In this document: in pieces, positions 21,717 through 32,607 of the stretch
Layout: the number at the start of each line of letters is the position of its first letter
How positions within the stretch are numbered: the stretch's first letter is position 1
From: Methanobacteriota archaeon
GTDB taxonomy: Archaea > Thermoplasmatota > Poseidoniia > Poseidoniales > Poseidoniaceae
Direction: 5' to 3'
Length of the DNA stretch: 40,254 nt
NCBI GenBank assembly: GCA_018667575.1
Contig: JABIUA010000089.1
Location: 1-40,254, forward strand
The notes under the pieces: model-generated
Told to the model about the DNA's origin: nothing
What the model saw: only the letters and a program-made list of their open reading frames with translations
Database searches by the model: none
Translations under genes and position numbers: made by a program

Positions 21717-23294
21717 TCACATTGAGAAGTCGGAGAAATTATCCTCTTCGTCAAAACTACTTTTCTTTGGCTCTTGCTCGGGAACTGGCTCAGGAGTGGC
21801 ACTCTTGACACTCTTACGCTTTCTCACCGTTTTCTTTTTCTTAATAACTGGATTAATATCGCCAGATATTGCACTGTCTTGAATATTATATGTTATATTC
21901 TGTACAATTGTCTTACTTTTGGCAACACTAGAGAAATGCTCTCTCTTAGGCTTGACTGGCTCACTACTAACCACATTGCTAGAACGTTGCTCCATGCGAG
22001 GTTCTCTCTTTGGAGGCTGCCAAGCAGGCTTCTCTTCTTCTTGGTAAGAGTAATCTCGAGATTCACTATTTCCTGATTCCTGCTGGTCATCTATTTTTAT
22101 TGATTCTGATGTTGCTACGACTGAAGAACCACTACCTCCAAATTCGGATGTTTTTCCTTGGGATGGAGAAGAAGAAAGTACGCTATCTAAATCAAAACCT
22201 GCAATTGTACTTTCTTGTTTTTTAGAAGGTTTACTAGATTTTTGCTCGGCTTTGTTTTCTTCTTTGGCTTGTCTATCGAGTTGTTTTGTTCTCTCTTTAG
22301 GAGATATCATTCCCGACGCTTTGGACCTACGCAAATCAGAGGCGACTTTCTTTATTTTATCCATCCCTTCTTTCCCAAGTAAAGTCTTCATTGTTGACCT
22401 GGCGCCATGTAAAACAAATAATTGTGACAGAATGAAAAGGCCAAATCCTCCGCCTAAACCAACGACTAAGAAGAATATGATGTACCCTGCTCTACCAAAA
22501 AATGGAACATCGCCGTAAGTCCACTCATCTTTAGATTCTCCATCATCACTAACAACTGCACCATCAAGAATTATTCTATCGACTAGAACATATACACTCT
22601 GTCTGTGTGGTTCACCAATTACAAGATTACAGTTAGAGTCAACTTTGTGGCTAGAAGATGAATTTCCTGACTTAAAATATCCATTTGACGTCACATTTTC
22701 GATTGGATTGACTAAGTACCCTTCTATGGTAACAGGTTGATGCCACTCATCTAATGAGCGCATTCCATCATGTATGTTTTCAGTGGTTGGAATTAAAGCT
22801 AGTACATACCAGTAGTCATCACTTTCACTATCTACTTCATCTAAATCGAAAGGTGTTGCTCCTGTTTGCGGGTCTAAAGGTCTATACCACTCTTTGAGGT
22901 CAACCCTAGGACTCTGGCCCTCGAGAACATTACTGGCTTTATCAAAAGACATTGATTGAATTGCTACTGAGGTAGTCACTGCTAATTCAAGGTCATTAGC
23001 GCCGTTAATTTCGTCGTGAGACTCATAGAAATAACTCGATGAAAGTAAACCGGTAAAGGAGATAGTTGAAGATGAATCTGTTGTAAGATAATTGGTAGTT
23101 CCTTCTTCACAACCCACGGGTAAAACATTTTCATATTCAATGGAAGAAGCGCCAAGATCTGAATCGATTTTTGTTCCTTCTTGGGAGAAGTCAACCTCTA
23201 CTCCGTCAGAACCCCAAGAAGCAGTTTCAGGGCCAAGACAGCCAGCCAAGGTCATCAGTGCAAGGAGATAAACCGCCAACACTACTCTTCGCAT
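21717..23294 (-). CDS. Membrane lipoprotein with transmembrane helix and disordered tail carrying a shared 15-residue motif
   Basis: The N-terminus MRRVVLAVYLLALMTLAGCLG is a lipoprotein-type signal with an LAGC lipobox (Cys19). About 250 residues follow as an external, Ser/Asp-rich domain with a Cys pair. A helix (AGYIIFFLVVGLGGGFGLFIL) lies near residues 270-290, and then ~230 charged, low-complexity residues probably sit in the cytoplasm. Near the end is QNITYNIQDSAISGD, found exactly in the DUF4190 protein at 32017-32607; it is followed by a run of Lys/Arg and an acidic tail. No enzyme motif is visible. Converges with the lipid kinase gene, 1 bp apart. Confidence 0.7.
   Translation of the reverse strand: MRRVVLAVYLLALMTLAGCLGPETASWGSDGVEVDFSQEGTKIDSDLGASSIEYENVLPVGCEEGTTNYLTTDSSSTISFTGLLSSSYFYESHDEINGANDLELAVTTSVAIQSMSFDKASNVLEGQSPRVDLKEWYRPLDPQTGATPFDLDEVDSESDDYWYVLALIPTTENIHDGMRSLDEWHQPVTIEGYLVNPIENVTSNGYFKSGNSSSSHKVDSNCNLVIGEPHRQSVYVLVDRIILDGAVVSDDGESKDEWTYGDVPFFGRAGYIIFFLVVGLGGGFGLFILSQLFVLHGARSTMKTLLGKEGMDKIKKVASDLRRSKASGMISPKERTKQLDRQAKEENKAEQKSSKPSKKQESTIAGFDLDSVLSSSPSQGKTSEFGGSGSSVVATSESIKIDDQQESGNSESRDYSYQEEEKPAWQPPKREPRMEQRSSNVVSSEPVKPKREHFSSVAKSKTIVQNITYNIQDSAISGDINPVIKKKKTVRKRKSVKSATPEPVPEQEPKKSSFDEEDNFSDFSM
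21858..21902 (-). repeat. Segment encoding QNITYNIQDSAISGD, copy A
   Basis: This 45-nt segment differs from the copy at 32503-32547 at only four positions, all third codon positions and all synonymous. The 15 encoded residues are identical. The flanking sequences of the two genes are not similar. Confidence 0.85.
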
Positions 23295-23505: not shown

Positions 23506-25074
23506 CTAATTTTCTTCTTCATTCGACGTGCTGCGGACATTTATTGCAATTGCAGCAGTACCTAAAGCAATGAACGCCATGGCAAAGGTAAGACCAGGAA
23601 TTCCTTCGCTTGAATCGTCGATTAAACCTTCAATTTCGGCTAAGGTTTCTATGTCCTCTATAAATTCCGAAGGATCCCAATTATCTCCGGTCCAAGCTAC
23701 TCTTGGTTTACGCTCTCTATCTAGGATGAAAGTTGTCGTTGAGTGTCCAACCGAATATTCTTCTTCCGCCTCTACTGCCACACATGACAACATTGTTCCT
23801 TCAGGCCACTCATAACCTCCATCACACATGCAATGCTTTCCAGAACCTGAACCCATTTCCCAACCGTGGCCATCACAAACTTGGCTAGATTGTTGGTCAA
23901 TCATACTTTGAACTGCCCCCGGAATTGGGATATCAGAATCTGCAGTCGTATTTCGTGCCCATGCTATATACTGAGGTTCTTTTATCGAATCAACACCGAG
24001 TTGGGAGTATTCCCAAGACATATCGGATTCATTCCATGTGTGTAGTTCCCAGTACCAAGACCAATTATCCAAAGCAGGATCCTCATCATTGAAAGAAGAG
24101 AAAAAATGACCGAATTGAGAATGTTTTGAAGAGGAATAGTTCAAATCTGCTCCATCAAATGCCCCAACTGTCAAGTGCCAAGCGGTCAAATCACTTTCAT
24201 CAAAGGTATAACTCTCAGAAATATTTTCTGGATAAACAATCGACATACCATACGTATCATCGGTAGGAGTTTGAAGTAAGTTTTCATCGGCATTTGATGC
24301 GATATAAGCGATGTTTGGATATTCTTCAACATCTACGAAATCAACTCCAACATTCGATTCTTGCCAAGCGCTAGAAGTTTCATTATAGGTCATAAATCGC
24401 CAGTACCAAGACCAATCCGCAGGAGACTCTGTACCATTAATACCAGAAATCATATGTCCATATTCTGGATGCTTGGAATAGTTCAGTGAAATATTGTTTT
24501 GGTCGACCACCGCATTAGTCAAAGACCATGCTGTTGGCAAAAACATCAATTCTGATGAATTACCCTCGCCATCGACAAATGTAACCGTTGAATCATTAGA
24601 CTGATGTCCATTTCCATCAGCAATATGTGCTTCGATTACATTCTTTTGTACTACAAGTCCAAAACTGTTCCAGACTTCTTCCATCACTTCTAATTCGCCT
24701 GTCAAGTGAGACCAATTTGCATCGTGTAATTCACTGAAATCTTTCAGTCTCTCAGGAGTATCATATTCAGGGTCAACTGATATTGAAATAAAACCCACAT
24801 CATCGCTATATTCGGAGGAAAGTCCATCTTGAACTGACCTCAATGATTGAGTGATTACTGGGCATACATCAGTACATCGAGTAAATATGAAAGCAACAAC
24901 AAGAATTTCACCATTTGTGAGACTCAAAGTTACGTTATTCTCATCTTGGTCGATCAAAGTAAAATCGGTAACTGAACCTCGAGATAACTGATATCCTTTG
25001 TATGCCGAAGTAGTTGGCACAAGGGAGACCAATAGTATACTAATCAAGAAAAATGCTACTACTCGTACTTTCAT
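23506..25074 (-). CDS. Sco1/SenC-like copper chaperone with large internal insertion
   Basis: Probable assembly factor delivering copper to the CuA site of the adjacent oxidase. After a signal peptide (residues 1-24) a thioredoxin-like Sco domain carries the Cys pair in FTRCTDVCP (near residue 70) and ISVDPEYDTPERL. The conserved Sco His appears only in YSVGHSTTTFILDRE, near residue 440. In normal Sco proteins (~200 residues) this distance is about 90-100. The insertion holds two related Trp-rich repeats (HPEYGHMISGING with DWSWYWRF; HSQFGHFFSSFND with NWSWYWEL), resembling DUF4430, and a Cys-rich EGF-like piece (GKHCMCDGGYEWPEG). A C-terminal helix anchors it. GGAGG precedes the ATG by 8 nt. 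Last gene of the cox operon. Confidence 0.85.
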   Translation of the reverse strand: MKVRVVAFFLISILLVSLVPTTSAYKGYQLSRGSVTDFTLIDQDENNVTLSLTNGEILVVAFIFTRCTDVCPVITQSLRSVQDGLSSEYSDDVGFISISVDPEYDTPERLKDFSELHDANWSHLTGELEVMEEVWNSFGLVVQKNVIEAHIADGNGHQSNDSTVTFVDGEGNSSELMFLPTAWSLTNAVVDQNNISLNYSKHPEYGHMISGINGTESPADWSWYWRFMTYNETSSAWQESNVGVDFVDVEEYPNIAYIASNADENLLQTPTDDTYGMSIVYPENISESYTFDESDLTAWHLTVGAFDGADLNYSSSKHSQFGHFFSSFNDEDPALDNWSWYWELHTWNESDMSWEYSQLGVDSIKEPQYIAWARNTTADSDIPIPGAVQSMIDQQSSQVCDGHGWEMGSGSGKHCMCDGGYEWPEGTMLSCVAVEAEEEYSVGHSTTTFILDRERKPRVAWTGDNWDPSEFIEDIETLAEIEGLIDDSSEGIPGLTFAMAFIALGTAAIAINVRSTSNEEEN

Positions 25075-25113
25075 GTATTAGCCTCCAGTGGGCCATATAT
25101 TACACATTGTGTA

Positions 25114-25500
25114 TCAGCGGGTAGCATAATCCCAATCCGGAGTACACCATGATGGTAATTCAGTCACTGCTTCTGGATTGGAAAGTCCAATTCCCCAAAG
25201 CATCAATAATACAAATAATACTGGAAATAATGCAGTTCTAGTATAAATTCGTGGATCGCCGCGTAAGTGCATAAAGTAAGCAGCAATTCCGTAACCCTTT
25301 ATGATTCCAACGCCAATAAGGACGCCCCATACCATCAGTCTTGTAATCTCTATTTCAGTACCTGGTATTTTCTCGAAGAATACCGCGCCTACTTCAAAAA
25401 GAGTGAAGAACATCAAGACTAAAAAGTTCCAGAAGTAGATGTCTTTACCAGTTTTATCCAAAAGCCATTTTTCGATTCCTGTTGTTGCATGTTCACCCAT
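25114..25500 (-). CDS. Cytochrome c oxidase subunit IV (prokaryotic COX4-type)
   Basis: Small accessory membrane subunit of the terminal oxidase. It has three membrane helices: FWNFLVLMFFTLFEVGAVFF (residues ~22-41), RLMVWGVLIGVGIIKGYGIAAYFMHL (~54-79) and ALFPVLFVLLMLWGIGL (~90-106). The AAYFMHL sequence on the second helix is the family hallmark. Length (128) is typical. GAGGTG lies about 5-8 nt before the ATG. It follows the subunit III gene by 9 bp and precedes the Sco-like gene by about 39 bp in the same operon. Confidence 0.88.
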   Translation of the reverse strand: MGEHATTGIEKWLLDKTGKDIYFWNFLVLMFFTLFEVGAVFFEKIPGTEIEITRLMVWGVLIGVGIIKGYGIAAYFMHLRGDPRIYTRTALFPVLFVLLMLWGIGLSNPEAVTELPSWCTPDWDYATR

Positions 25501-25509
25501 TTAATCACC

Positions 25510-26793
25510 TCAATACAAATAAAATGCTGGGAAAATTACCACCCACGCCAAATCTACAAAGTGCCAATAAAGACCGAAATATTCGATTCCTTGGCCATTG
25601 TCTTCATCAAATCCAACTGTATCGGATTTGAAGATTAAGTAAAGCATTACTAGAAGACCAACGAAAACGTGAAGTCCGTGAGCACCAGTAGCAACATAGA
25701 AGATAGAACCTTGAGGGCTACCTATATCGAAGCCTTCTGCGACAAGGTGGCTCCATTCTACAAGTTTCAGAACAATGAACAGAGAGCCGAGTAGAAGAGT
25801 TGCTATCAAATAATTTCTAATTGCTCTCTTCTTATCAGGTAGAACAAAGCGCATAAAATTTGTAGGTGCTTCCCAATTCTTATTCTTGGCTGTCTTCAAT
25901 GCTAATACAATGGTGTATGATGAAACAATTAGCGCAAAGGTGTTTATTGCTCCTGGCATTAAAGTAGCAACATCATATCTTAACAGATCTGAAGCGGTTG
26001 TGACATTTCCTTCTGCAACTCCATAACACTTATCGCCGCTCTCTGATGCACGGATTGCCCAATCAGTACACCATTCCGTTCTGACACGAAGATATGAGGA
26101 GAAGAAAGTTGCGAAAACCATAATCTCAGACATAATGAATACCCAAATACCTGCTTTTCTGATGTGTTCACCTTCGAAAGGTGCAGAAGTAGCGATTTGC
26201 TCACCATGCCCAATGAATGGTAAATCTTCTTTCCACCAATTTGCTATACCAAGCATAACGAAATTCAAACCAATGAGGCTTAGAAGAATATCTCCGAATG
26301 CAAATGTACCGCCTTGAGACATAAGTGCTTTACAGGCAACTACGAAACTTGGGAAGCCCATCAAGAATAACATTATTCCTAAACTGAAAACAATAGGAGA
26401 TGCTGACCCATGATGCTCTTCATGCCCGTGGTCATCATGTCCATGGTCATCATCTGATTGTAAAGCATTTACAAACCCACCAATTCCAAGGAATATGGCA
26501 TAGATGCTGAACATCACCAAGATAGTTACTCCTGCTACACGATAAGTCAAGAAAGATAGATGTGCTTCTTCTTCAGCATGATAAAGGTGGTCCAGTTCTT
26601 CACTTGTGGTCAAAGGATCTTCTTTGGCATCATGATAGGCATGCTTTGCATCATCATAGACGTCATGCTTCTGATTTGCAACTCCTATTCCAAGAGCGGC
26701 GAAAGCAATTATTCCAATGACTGCAAAAATTCCAGCCATCATTACGGCATGCATCCATGTCGAGTTTTCAACATGGTTGTTGTGTGAACTCAT
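25510..26793 (-). CDS. coxC: Cytochrome c oxidase subunit III, N-terminally extended, His-rich loop
   Basis: Core membrane subunit of the haem-copper oxidase. The C-terminal two thirds match COX3: KAGIWVFIMSEIMVFATFFSSYL, PGAINTFALIVSSYTIVLAL, YVATGAHGLHVFVGLLVMLYL and the ending YWHFVDLAWVVIFPAFYLY. At 427 residues it is about twice the length of ordinary bacterial subunit III. The extra N-terminus contains two membrane helices (near residues 14-36 and 70-92) separated by a charged helical segment rich in His, Asp and Glu. A His/Asp-rich loop (DDDHGHDDHGHEEHHGS, near 115-131) follows and could bind metal. The ATG overlaps the coxA stop by 4 bp (ATGA). Confidence 0.92.
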   Translation of the reverse strand: MSSHNNHVENSTWMHAVMMAGIFAVIGIIAFAALGIGVANQKHDVYDDAKHAYHDAKEDPLTTSEELDHLYHAEEEAHLSFLTYRVAGVTILVMFSIYAIFLGIGGFVNALQSDDDHGHDDHGHEEHHGSASPIVFSLGIMLFLMGFPSFVVACKALMSQGGTFAFGDILLSLIGLNFVMLGIANWWKEDLPFIGHGEQIATSAPFEGEHIRKAGIWVFIMSEIMVFATFFSSYLRVRTEWCTDWAIRASESGDKCYGVAEGNVTTASDLLRYDVATLMPGAINTFALIVSSYTIVLALKTAKNKNWEAPTNFMRFVLPDKKRAIRNYLIATLLLGSLFIVLKLVEWSHLVAEGFDIGSPQGSIFYVATGAHGLHVFVGLLVMLYLIFKSDTVGFDEDNGQGIEYFGLYWHFVDLAWVVIFPAFYLY

Positions 26794-29108
26794 TCTTCAG
26801 CCCCCTTTGCTTTACCTTTCCATAATTTATCTGAAAGCGAATCCTTGTCAGAATGATGCCCGTACAACTCATTCATATCTCCCTGTGTAGGAATATCATG
26901 GAATGATGGAGTTGGTGGTGGCGAGGTAGTAGACCATTCAAGCGACCATCCGCCCCATGGGTCTTTGCCAACAGGCTCTCCAGACCTTCTGGAATGGAAT
27001 ATATTCCAAGCTAGCAGAAGTTGACTTAGACCGAAAATGAATGCAAATATGCTGACTGCAAGGTTATACTCGGCAAATCCAGTTTCCTCTAGATAAGAAT
27101 GAGTTCTTCTTGGCATACCCATAATCCCTAGTTTGTGCATTGGCCAGAAAGCGGCATTGTAAGAAGAAAATCCAATCAAGAAATGCCACAGCCCTAGTTT
27201 TTCGTTCAACTTACGGCCTGTCACCTTGGGATACCAGTAGTAAACCCCAGAGAATAATGCGAAGACAGTACCGCCAATGAATACGTAGTGGAAGTGAGCC
27301 ACAACGAAGTATGAATCGTGGAAGTGAATATCAAGTCCTGCAACAGGGAAGAACATTCCAGAAATTCCACCAAGTGTGAACGTAACTAAGAATCCAAGAG
27401 ACCAGAGAGTGTGAGTCTTCATTACTAGACTTCCACCCCATAGAGTTGCCAACCAATTGAATATTTTAGCACCGGTAGGAATTGCTACTGCCATTGTGGT
27501 TACCATGAAAGCTGCACGCCAGAAAGCGTCCATACCCGATGTTAACATGTGGTGGCCCCAAACAATGAATCCTACAACACCGATTCCAGCCATTGCTAGA
27601 ACCATTGACTTGTATCCAAAGATAGATCTGCGCGCACTTGTAGCAAGTACTTCAGAAACTATTCCGAATGCAGGAACAATCACCACGTATACCTCTGGAT
27701 GTCCGAAGAACCAGAACAGGTGCTGGAATAGTAATCCATCACCACCACTAGTGAAGAAAACCGTTCCAATCGTGTGGTCAAAGAGCAGGAATACCAATCC
27801 TATGACCAATGCTGGAAGCGACATATATAGCATGAATACGCTAACGAATACTGACCAAGAGAACAATGGCATCTTCATCCAAGTAACACCAGGAGCGCGC
27901 ATTGTAAACACTGTAGTGATGAAATTTACACCACTGAGTGTAGATGATGCACCAAGCATCAACATTCCCGAAAGAAAGGCTGTTGTTCCAAGGTTAGAAC
28001 CATATTGAGCCATTCCTTCGCCAAGGTTAGCTTCGGTTAATGAAGAATAAGGCGGGTACATAACCCATGTAATATCTGCTGCCTCTCCTGACCAAATTCC
28101 AGTGTAAATCAAAGGACTGGAGAACACAAGTAGCCAAAGACCCATTGCATTGATTCTAGGGAATGCTAAGTCTTTAGCACCAATCTGTAGTGGTAATACA
28201 TAGTTCATGAATCCAGCAATCATTGGCATTGCTGCTAGGAAAATCATTGTAGTACCGTGAAGGGTAAAGAAAGAGTTGTATTCTGTCTCGGTCAAGAAAG
28301 TATTCTCTGGAATCGCCAGTTGTATTCTAAACAATAACGCAAGGAAACCACCAACGAGGAAGAAAATGAATCCATATAAGAAATACATGACACCGACTTC
28401 TTTGTGGTCAGTTGTAGTTAACCACGGTTTGAGGTAAGCCCAGAAATTACCCAGTGTGAATGTATCAGGAGAACGGGAATAGTAAACCCACAAAATTCCA
28501 AGTAAAACCAGTCCCAAAGCAAGCCCTATAGCAGTTAAAAGTAATACAAGTGCTCTAACACTTGGCGCTAAATCTCCAGCGTTAATTCCTGATACAGTTG
28601 TTTGGTACGAGTTCCACATGTCTCCTTGAGAGCCAGAACCTCCATTTACTGCATTAGCATTGATAGTGAATTCTGTAAACACTGTATCATCTGCTGGAGC
28701 AACCCATTCGAAGTCCCATGTTCGGAATTTATTACCTTCATCAGTATGAGTTAAGCCACCCTCTTTCTCTTGACTTAAGGTCGGGTCAACTGAAGTCACA
28801 GTACCTTTTGAAGCAAGTATTCTAAATCCACCAGCACGAGTATTCCAGCCATCTTCTTCAATACCATCGGCCCACAGAGTCATAGCGTCATTGGTGACAG
28901 TGACAGTGAATGGGTAGGTTTCGCTCGCATTGAATTGTTCAGGTAATCCAGTAACAGTAACTGTGGTATCTGCTGAAGGACTTCCGTGACAAGAACATCC
29001 GTTATCTCCAATGTTGCCAATTCCTCCCGGGGCTGCAGTAAATTGAGGGATTGCAAACATTGATAATAATATCAATCCCAAAATTCCAATTGCAAGTTTA
29101 CGCATCAA
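26790..29108 (-). CDS. coxA: Cytochrome c oxidase subunit I (A1 type) with exported N-terminal domain
   Basis: Catalytic subunit that reduces O2 and pumps protons. From about residue 220 the 12-helix core is complete. It includes the low-spin haem ligand region FFTLHGTTMIF, GHPEVYVVIVPAFG (CuB His, cross-linked Tyr and the D-channel Glu that defines type A1), WGHHMLTSGMD (CuB histidines) and HFHDSYFVVAHFHYVFIGG (haem ligands). Before it lies a signal peptide (residues ~1-26) and a ~150-residue external domain beginning DNGCSCHGSPSADTTVTV, then a helix around 183-205. This front domain resembles Reeler/'choice-of-anchor' domains of bacterial surface proteins and is not part of ordinary subunit I (~550 residues). 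GGAGG lies 9 nt before the ATG, which overlaps the coxB stop by 4 bp. Confidence 0.95.
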   Translation of the reverse strand: MMRKLAIGILGLILLSMFAIPQFTAAPGGIGNIGDNGCSCHGSPSADTTVTVTGLPEQFNASETYPFTVTVTNDAMTLWADGIEEDGWNTRAGGFRILASKGTVTSVDPTLSQEKEGGLTHTDEGNKFRTWDFEWVAPADDTVFTEFTINANAVNGGSGSQGDMWNSYQTTVSGINAGDLAPSVRALVLLLTAIGLALGLVLLGILWVYYSRSPDTFTLGNFWAYLKPWLTTTDHKEVGVMYFLYGFIFFLVGGFLALLFRIQLAIPENTFLTETEYNSFFTLHGTTMIFLAAMPMIAGFMNYVLPLQIGAKDLAFPRINAMGLWLLVFSSPLIYTGIWSGEAADITWVMYPPYSSLTEANLGEGMAQYGSNLGTTAFLSGMLMLGASSTLSGVNFITTVFTMRAPGVTWMKMPLFSWSVFVSVFMLYMSLPALVIGLVFLLFDHTIGTVFFTSGGDGLLFQHLFWFFGHPEVYVVIVPAFGIVSEVLATSARRSIFGYKSMVLAMAGIGVVGFIVWGHHMLTSGMDAFWRAAFMVTTMAVAIPTGAKIFNWLATLWGGSLVMKTHTLWSLGFLVTFTLGGISGMFFPVAGLDIHFHDSYFVVAHFHYVFIGGTVFALFSGVYYWYPKVTGRKLNEKLGLWHFLIGFSSYNAAFWPMHKLGIMGMPRRTHSYLEETGFAEYNLAVSIFAFIFGLSQLLLAWNIFHSRRSGEPVGKDPWGGWSLEWSTTSPPPTPSFHDIPTQGDMNELYGHHSDKDSLSDKLWKGKAKGAEE

Positions 29109-30085
29109 TTACCGCCTCCTTCTTTTGGAATGCCGGAATCTTCATCGCAATTTGTGTAAACTCCGTCAATGAATGGCGATACAACATCTACCTTTCCAAT
29201 CATCTTCGAATGGTCCATTCCGCAGTATTCAGCGCAACGTATGTCATATGTTCCTGGGTCATCAGGGAGGAACCACATCATTGTCCCGCCTTCTAGACCA
29301 GGGACTAGGTCTTCTTTAACGCCCCATTCTGGTAACCAGAATGAGTGTTGAACGCCCCAGTAGGTGCTGTTTAATTCGCTGTAATCACTTGTTAAAGAGA
29401 ACAGTGAAAGTACTACTTCATCATCGCATGGCACGATCATATGTTCGCCCAGTGCAGTAGATAATTGATGATTGATTGGAATATGATTCCAAGTATGCAA
29501 TACATTTCCTTCCAAATCGGTCACCTCAACTGTGGAATGACTGAAATTATCGAAACTAGATGAGATTGTCTTTACGCCTAACTGTGAGTCTAGCGAATAA
29601 TCCAAAACAACTGTTCCAATGGTGATTGTCATATTGGTGGCATCAGGATTACTCGAGAACTGAACTACTAAGTCTTGCCCCCAGTTAACATCTATACCTG
29701 TGACACGTGGGTCATCTTGCCAGGTCAGCTCTTCGTTGTAATTAAACTCCCAAAACCACTGCTTTCCAATGACTTCCATATTGAAAGATTCATCTTCATC
29801 TGGTATTACCCACACTTGCGTATTGGACGATAAGGACAAGACCACTAGCCAAACAACTAAGATTGTAGGGACAACATAGAATAAAACTTCTAATCTGGTA
29901 TTATGTCGCTCCACAGGGAAAGAACCGACAACGATATGGTCTAAATCAGTGGTGTCCGGGACAATGTTTTGCCGGTACCTTGCCATAGCATAAAACATCC
30001 ACGCAAAGGTTAGAATTCCAACTAAAATTCCCCAAAACAGGAACTTCTCGTAAAGCACAGAAAAAACGGTGTCGTCTGCTGGCAT
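29105..30085 (-). CDS. coxB: Cytochrome c oxidase subunit II with CuA site
   Basis: Receives electrons from cytochrome c or a blue copper protein through CuA. Two N-terminal helices (FLFWGILVGILTFAWMFYAM; VLFYVVPTILVVWLVVLSL) anchor a C-terminal cupredoxin domain. The CuA ligands are visible: His in WGVQHSFWLPE, then CAEYCGMDHSKM (Cys-x3-Cys-x3-His-x2-Met). The aromatic patch WFWEFNY is present. The external domain is larger than usual: about 100 extra residues, with a Cys and many sequons, lie between the aromatic patch and the first CuA His. There is no cleavable signal peptide. First gene of the coxB-coxA-coxC-IV-sco operon, transcribed from the 30086-30263 intergenic region. Confidence 0.93.
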   Translation of the reverse strand: MPADDTVFSVLYEKFLFWGILVGILTFAWMFYAMARYRQNIVPDTTDLDHIVVGSFPVERHNTRLEVLFYVVPTILVVWLVVLSLSSNTQVWVIPDEDESFNMEVIGKQWFWEFNYNEELTWQDDPRVTGIDVNWGQDLVVQFSSNPDATNMTITIGTVVLDYSLDSQLGVKTISSSFDNFSHSTVEVTDLEGNVLHTWNHIPINHQLSTALGEHMIVPCDDEVVLSLFSLTSDYSELNSTYWGVQHSFWLPEWGVKEDLVPGLEGGTMMWFLPDDPGTYDIRCAEYCGMDHSKMIGKVDVVSPFIDGVYTNCDEDSGIPKEGGGN

Positions 30086-32016: not shown

Positions 32017-32607
32017 TCAACCGCCAAAAGAAACGGCTAGCATTAAGAATGCTATCCAAAAGAAGATGCCTACTGCAAACAACCCGATATTTATCCAACC
32101 GAGAATGAGTGCTGCCTTAGCAGTGCCTGCATCTGGATGGTTTGGATTTTGATCGGTTATTTCTAGTGCACCTTTCGCCACAATTACTGCTGGAATTGCA
32201 GTTATAATTCCGCACATAACATACGAAAGTGCAGCGAGGACAATCGCTGTAACTGCTGAAGTCTGCGGGTAATAGCCTACTGCAAAGCCTTGAGAAATAG
32301 GAATCGTTGATGGTTGTCCGTGTATTTGATTGGGCATTCCTTGTTGTTGGTTGGAGTAATACTGTTGTGTCGGGGAAGATTGAGTTGGCATACCTTGCTG
32401 ATTATTGTCATATTGCGGTTGTGAAAGTTCTTGATTGATATTCATTTGTGCTGGAGGAGGACTTTGTTGAGTTTCAACATCTGGCTTAGCTGCGCCATTC
32501 AAATCTCCAGATATTGCACTATCTTGAATATTATAAGTTATATTTTGAATAATATTTTGACCTTTGCCCTCGGTCTGACTCCAAAAGGTATCATTTTCAT
32601 CAGTCAT
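32017..32607 (-). CDS. DUF4190-type membrane protein with Gln/Pro-rich N-terminus and shared 15-residue motif
   Basis: The C-terminal ~90 residues carry the DUF4190 pattern: two membrane helices (SAVTAIVLAALSYVMCGIIT-type and AALILGWINIGLFAVGIFFWI) around VIVAKGALEITDQNPNHPDAGTAKAALILG-like polar sequence. Residues ~30-110 are rich in Gln, Pro, Asn and Ser and likely disordered. Near the N-terminus (residues ~20-34) is QNITYNIQDSAISGD, identical to a segment in the lipoprotein at 21717-23294. No enzymatic role is suggested. The start codon lies 1 nt after the stop of the interrupted ribbon-helix-helix gene, so the two were probably one operon. Confidence 0.8.
   Translation of the reverse strand: MTDENDTFWSQTEGKGQNIIQNITYNIQDSAISGDLNGAAKPDVETQQSPPPAQMNINQELSQPQYDNNQQGMPTQSSPTQQYYSNQQQGMPNQIHGQPSTIPISQGFAVGYYPQTSAVTAIVLAALSYVMCGIITAIPAVIVAKGALEITDQNPNHPDAGTAKAALILGWINIGLFAVGIFFWIAFLMLAVSFGG
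32503..32547 (-). repeat. Segment encoding QNITYNIQDSAISGD, copy B
   Basis: Second copy of the 45-nt segment at 21858-21902: 41 of 45 bases match, all four differences are synonymous third positions, and the peptide is identical. It lies near the N-terminus here and near the C-terminus in the other protein. Confidence 0.85.

Follow-up and report, generated by a model that had tools for sequence, protein, structure and literature searches.

In eukaryotes, portable interaction tags carried by many unrelated membrane proteins are familiar; in archaea, they have rarely been documented. Encapsulins and microcompartments rely on cargo-loading peptides, which are short, portable, and terminal, and which select unrelated proteins (mostly soluble enzymes) for one assembly with a known shell. 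Many archaeal surface proteins have in common the PGF-CTERM/archaeosortase signals, short C-terminal signals that consist of a transmembrane (TM) helix and a basic tail at the extreme C-terminus, and that are cut. The amyloid signaling motifs of bacteria and fungi (BASS1-10, HET-s, PP/RHIM, and sigma) are also short (~20–40 aa) and terminal, rich in N, Q, T, G, and I, and portable across unrelated proteins. Here, we describe a peptide tag of Poseidoniales, archaea that are abundant in the surface ocean and still uncultured (PMC6864105).

By analogy, the tag appears to resemble amyloid signaling motifs in kind, not in membership, and amyloid formation itself is untested (PMC7889193, PMC8086366, PMC12261475). 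It shares their shortness, composition, terminal position, and portability, and the same short motif is indeed found at the termini of different proteins (~20 carrier families). Unlike the amyloid motifs, it resides mostly in surface-protein tails and only in Poseidoniales. No pairing with NLRs or cell-death proteins (an NLR receptor with an adjacent effector gene) was found for 30 carriers scanned at E ≤ 0.001, and none of 35 tag stretches matched a described motif family, or any other Pfam family, at E ≤ 1. In contrast to encapsulin and microcompartment cargos, the carriers are mostly membrane proteins, with no known shell or scaffold. Neither does the tag fit the archaeosortase pattern of a hydrophobic TM segment and basic cluster at the extreme C-terminus, as it is polar, lies in the cytoplasmic tail after the TM segment or N-terminally, and is also carried by soluble proteins. 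No family in Pfam, NCBIfam, or the PDB matches it, and the openly licensed literature yielded no description of the motif letters or of tags in Poseidoniales.

The tag came to light in two genes of the window (the whole stretch of 40,254 nucleotides that was analyzed), with the following features:

21717..23294, minus strand: carrier gene 1, a 525-aa lipoprotein (ORF)
21855..21908, minus strand: tag copy 1, full unit IVQNITYNIQDSAISGDI (sequence; profile E = 1.3e-14 in its own genome)
22452..22508, minus strand: predicted TM segment of the lipoprotein, residues 263-281, dividing the ectodomain from the tagged tail (hydropathy)
32017..32607, minus strand: carrier gene 2, a 196-aa DUF4190 protein (ORF; Pfam PF13828, E = 7.2e-9)
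32500..32553, minus strand: tag copy 2, full unit IIQNITYNIQDSAISGDL (sequence; profile E = 5.0e-13)

A preliminary description of this DNA had reported an identical 15-residue segment in two otherwise unrelated membrane proteins, and both halves of that statement hold. The segment QNITYNIQDSAISGD is present in the lipoprotein tail (21858-21902) and in the DUF4190 protein (32503-32547), on the minus strand and in open frames, with 15/15 residues and 41/45 bases identical; the four base differences are all synonymous and all at third positions. The DNA similarity of the two genes is limited to 48 bp (89.6%, E = 2e-12), so they share no other homology, and recent paralogy of the two can be ruled out because homology ends beyond these 48 bp. 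The 15 residues are exact as an identity; as the extent of the conserved unit they fall short, as this spans ~18 residues, one to three longer on each side.

The lipoprotein has an N-terminal lipobox (LAGC), a single mid-protein TM segment followed by a K/R-rich stretch (positive-inside), and a long, disordered, charged cytoplasmic tail that bears the tag ~50 aa before the C-terminus; it has no significant Pfam or NCBIfam family match. The DUF4190 protein consists of a disordered, Q/N/P-rich N-terminal region, which bears the tag, and a C-terminal, two-helix DUF4190 membrane domain that passes the Pfam PF13828 gathering score (35.7 bits versus a cut-off of 35) and does not include the tag. Its AlphaFold2 model has a pLDDT below 50 at residues 11-115 and helices at 118-153 and 158-195. 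For the lipoprotein tail, the probable cytoplasmic location proposed earlier for both copies has good support from the lipobox, the single TM, and the positive charges that follow this TM; for the DUF4190 N-terminus, it is not established. The two copies lie 10.6 kb apart, and their genes stand on either side of a cytochrome c oxidase cluster that includes an SCO1-like protein (window 23506-30085). The ~10-kb spacing of the carrier genes is kept in five other genomes (G131, G158, G179, G113, and G227), tagged or not.

Genome searches define the conserved unit as [IV][VIT]QNIT[YV]NIxDS[AV][IV]xG[DN][IVLF]. A strict DNA pattern for NIQDS[AV][IVM]xGD gave 22 matches in 20 genomes among the 293 Poseidoniales genomes searched, all 22 of them in frame within ORFs, while a reversed-pattern control on the same 293 genomes gave none, ruling out a chance origin. 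At E ≤ 0.01, a profile was positive in 67 genomes, compared with about three expected by chance. Copies per genome reach seven (G051), many genomes show only one, and G002, whose genome is a single contig, has one looser motif only; most genomes searched are incomplete MAGs. The window genome (1.94 Mb, 88% complete) contains, according to profile and pattern searches, two strict tags and a third, looser one, NMQDSVVGGDVV, on a soluble Tudor/EF-hand protein (C41:20833), which makes the preliminary description's "several proteins of this cell" only modestly true. Its wider expectation, that genome searches would find the segment on diverse membrane proteins, was met with matches in at least 20 unrelated families and in both Poseidoniales families; the outcome that would have refuted it (no further copies, or recent paralogues alone) did not occur.

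Among the genomes searched, the tag is restricted to Poseidoniales (Marine Group II). Of 293 genomes sampled across the phylum, 40 were positive, and 40/40 positives fell within the order. A scan of 84,980 species for NITYNIxDS[AV] returned 40 stretches, 38 of which come from records labeled Poseidoniales, Poseidonia, Marine Group II, or unspecified Euryarchaeota; for the last of these labels, assignment to the order is likely, not proven. The two remaining matches are unrelated Bacteroidota proteins, which rules out the tag in other prokaryotes at this sampling. Viral carriage was ruled out as well, since the viral contigs scanned held one chance match, in an unrelated 1126-aa frame.

An alignment of 39 copies reveals how the tag has been maintained. 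Codon positions 1 and 2 are invariant in most core codons, whereas position 3 differs in 36–70% of pairs, and conservation drops sharply beyond ~18 residues. Certain positions were fixed by the patterns used to find some of the copies, so that invariance there is partly by construction; the free third positions and the sharp edges were not imposed by the search expression. Frozen first and second positions together with free third bases argue that the peptide is under selection, and we consider it well supported, with little room for doubt, that the tag is a real, selected, and portable peptide. The core serine adds information on its origin. It is encoded by AGY in 48/51 strict copies, compared with 25% AGY in window genes, and in 12/32 copies of the looser motif. 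As AGY and TCN codons are two base changes apart, this bias indicates that most strict copies share an ancestor; the 51 include orthologues, which do not count as independent, and one extra strict match in an unrelated Bacteroidota protein (L153) was left out of this count.

The strict tag is carried by ~20 unrelated protein families, as judged by blastp clustering and by eye. A typical carrier has a signal peptide, an ectodomain, one TM segment, and a disordered cytoplasmic tail with the tag. The carriers include giant surface proteins of 1200–1860 aa, proteins with beta-helix/Ig, WD40, or thrombospondin-type-3 ectodomains, the lipoprotein, DUF4190 proteins, several polytopic proteins (2–5 predicted TMs), and proteins in which no TM is predicted (L024, L037, and L091), the latter set including a Cys/His-rich pair. 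A looser core, [IVM]QDS[AV][VI]xG[DN], is also found on TM2, TctA, EF-hand polytopic, TPR-like, and Tudor/EF-hand proteins, on an NfeD-type protein (with the NfeD match below its cut-off), and on a protein without a predicted TM (L048); NITYNIVQNVQDSVIQGN is the version seen in a protein with a subtilase ectodomain. Tags are found behind the last TM in the tail, close to the C-terminus (5–65 aa from it), or at the N-terminus. In full-length proteins with a signal peptide and one TM, the tag without exception comes after that TM, as called from hydropathy only, and is thus predicted to be cytoplasmic. Coiled-coil-like stretches, identified by eye, often precede C-terminal tags (L034, L035, L040, and L149), and one protein (L112) contains two motif copies in tandem.

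The tag has repeatedly been gained and lost in otherwise conserved genes, as comparisons of orthologues show. Relatives of the lipoprotein occur in 59/63 genomes of the genus, 142/156 of the family, and 11/11 genera, and, among relatives cross-referenced with the tag search, only those of the window genome and of G078 (another genus, in the equivalent place) are tagged. The tag is absent from all 29 same-genus lipoprotein orthologues aligned; relative to a 73%-identical orthologue in G179, it is a net insertion of 17 aa. DUF4190 relatives have kept the tag in G179 and G158 and lack it in G131 and G520. At the DNA level, the lipoprotein tag is closest to DUF4190 copies, both that of its own genome (41/45) and those of the sister species G158 and G179 (40/45). 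This suggests that the tag may have been copied between the two genes, although 45 bp cannot prove copying or its direction. A further case was found in G006, where a 219-bp segment is 99.5% identical between two unrelated membrane protein genes (L034:1369-1587 and L045:1444-1662) and spans the coiled coil, the tag, the stop codon, and the 3′ flank, evidence for recent 3′-end swapping or duplication. The insertion, loss, and copying of the tag can be traced at the DNA level within one genus, providing a natural experiment on the spread of linear motifs.

How the tag acts can only be inferred; this holds for the binding, sorting, and self-assembly roles suggested in the preliminary description. 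Our favored reading, which we hold with somewhat less than even confidence, is that the tag is an interaction module that would draw its carriers into a common cytoplasmic assembly. On assembly, it may fold into a beta-arc, in which the strands VQNITYNI, AI, and I are linked in this order by the turns QDS and GD, and stack with copies on other proteins, often aided by the adjacent coiled coil. As a result, surface proteins would be clustered, or soluble tagged adaptors recruited to them. We favor such homotypic co-assembly because of the sequence pattern (alternating I/T/Y/N/I with Asn/Gln/Thr/Ser and G-D turns), the tagged soluble partners, the adjoining coiled coils, and the tandem pair in L112. 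The beta-arc is without structural support from the AlphaFold2 monomer model, which for a 40-aa tag stretch gave a mean pLDDT of 82 at residues 11-20 and no secondary structure. Two near-invariant Asp residues also speak against stacking: in parallel and in register, they would repel each other if neither exposed nor neutralized. The many single-copy genomes, and G002 with its one looser motif, are likewise not what a network of tagged partners would lead one to expect. More broadly, Poseidoniales could have a cytoplasmic assembly system that has not been described before, built on a mobile beta-stacking tag of 18 residues that spreads by copying between genes and clusters unrelated surface proteins, transporters, and soluble adaptors, a self-assembling "molecular Velcro"; we rate this proposal as less likely than not, though a real possibility. 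If the tag does assemble proteins, it would represent an unknown organizing principle on the inner membrane face of highly abundant surface-ocean archaea.

Nearly as likely as homotypic assembly is a dedicated receptor: the tag may be the ligand of one conserved Poseidoniales protein that binds it by adding it as a beta-strand to a folded domain, and that anchors, sorts, or positions the carriers at a site in the cell or on a scaffold. Single-copy genomes are accommodated by such heterotypic docking, as is the free position of the tag in C-terminal tails, N-terminal tails, and loops, like that of an internal linear motif, and the strict side-chain conservation (two Asp and a YNI core) suits recognition in a pocket. 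No candidate receptor has been identified, however, and a pure client model has no need of TM-less proteins with the same tag. Amyloid signaling proper, in which the tagged membrane proteins would be sensors or effectors of death or defense that undergo templated conversion as in HET-s and BASS, could account for the similar length, N/Q/T/G/I composition, terminal position, and repeated shuffling (PMC7889193, PMC12261475). We regard it as unlikely: NACHT/NB-ARC, TIR, CHAT, and cell-death domains were found in 0/30 carriers scanned (E ≤ 0.001), the tag has no Pfam match, and the window copies are placed around cytochrome oxidase genes, not as an NLR–effector pair.

Two further explanations were weighed. 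The tag could be a signal for processing, degradation, or modification, such as a protease degron or a site of N-glycosylation, given that NIT is a sequon and that nearly all strict copies contain an N-x-T sequon. This is improbable, as the tag of the single-pass carriers is predicted to be cytoplasmic, out of reach of glycosylation, as 18 conserved residues are far more than a sequon, and as surface proteins and transporters would be odd degron clients. Least credible is a selfish short DNA element that is tolerated in genes and encodes a functionless peptide, like the in-frame palindromic elements of some bacteria. Short insertions in disordered tails, sporadic presence, and recent copying are what such an element would produce; the in-frame placement of every strict match and a peptide that stays frozen while third positions vary are not, and we disfavor it strongly.

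Besides the tag, several carriers contain other recurrent sequences. A second C-terminal motif, approximately GLPxGWTxxQWxxYGxxWL, terminates many of the large tagged surface proteins and is found a few dozen residues past the tag in L063, L066, L068, L071, L086, L087, and L095. An N-terminal module, SPDGKxMWSGxEWIPAPP, lies upstream of a looser QDSVxxGDV in Tudor/EF-hand and TPR-like proteins (L048, L107, L108, L109, L112, L212-L218, L223, L225, and L226). Lastly, the N-terminal form of the motif in TM2-type proteins (L198-L203, L207, L210, L219, L221, and L222) is extended by HTGNVIHNHYH and shows a periodicity of nearly five residues that is reminiscent of a beta-helix rung.
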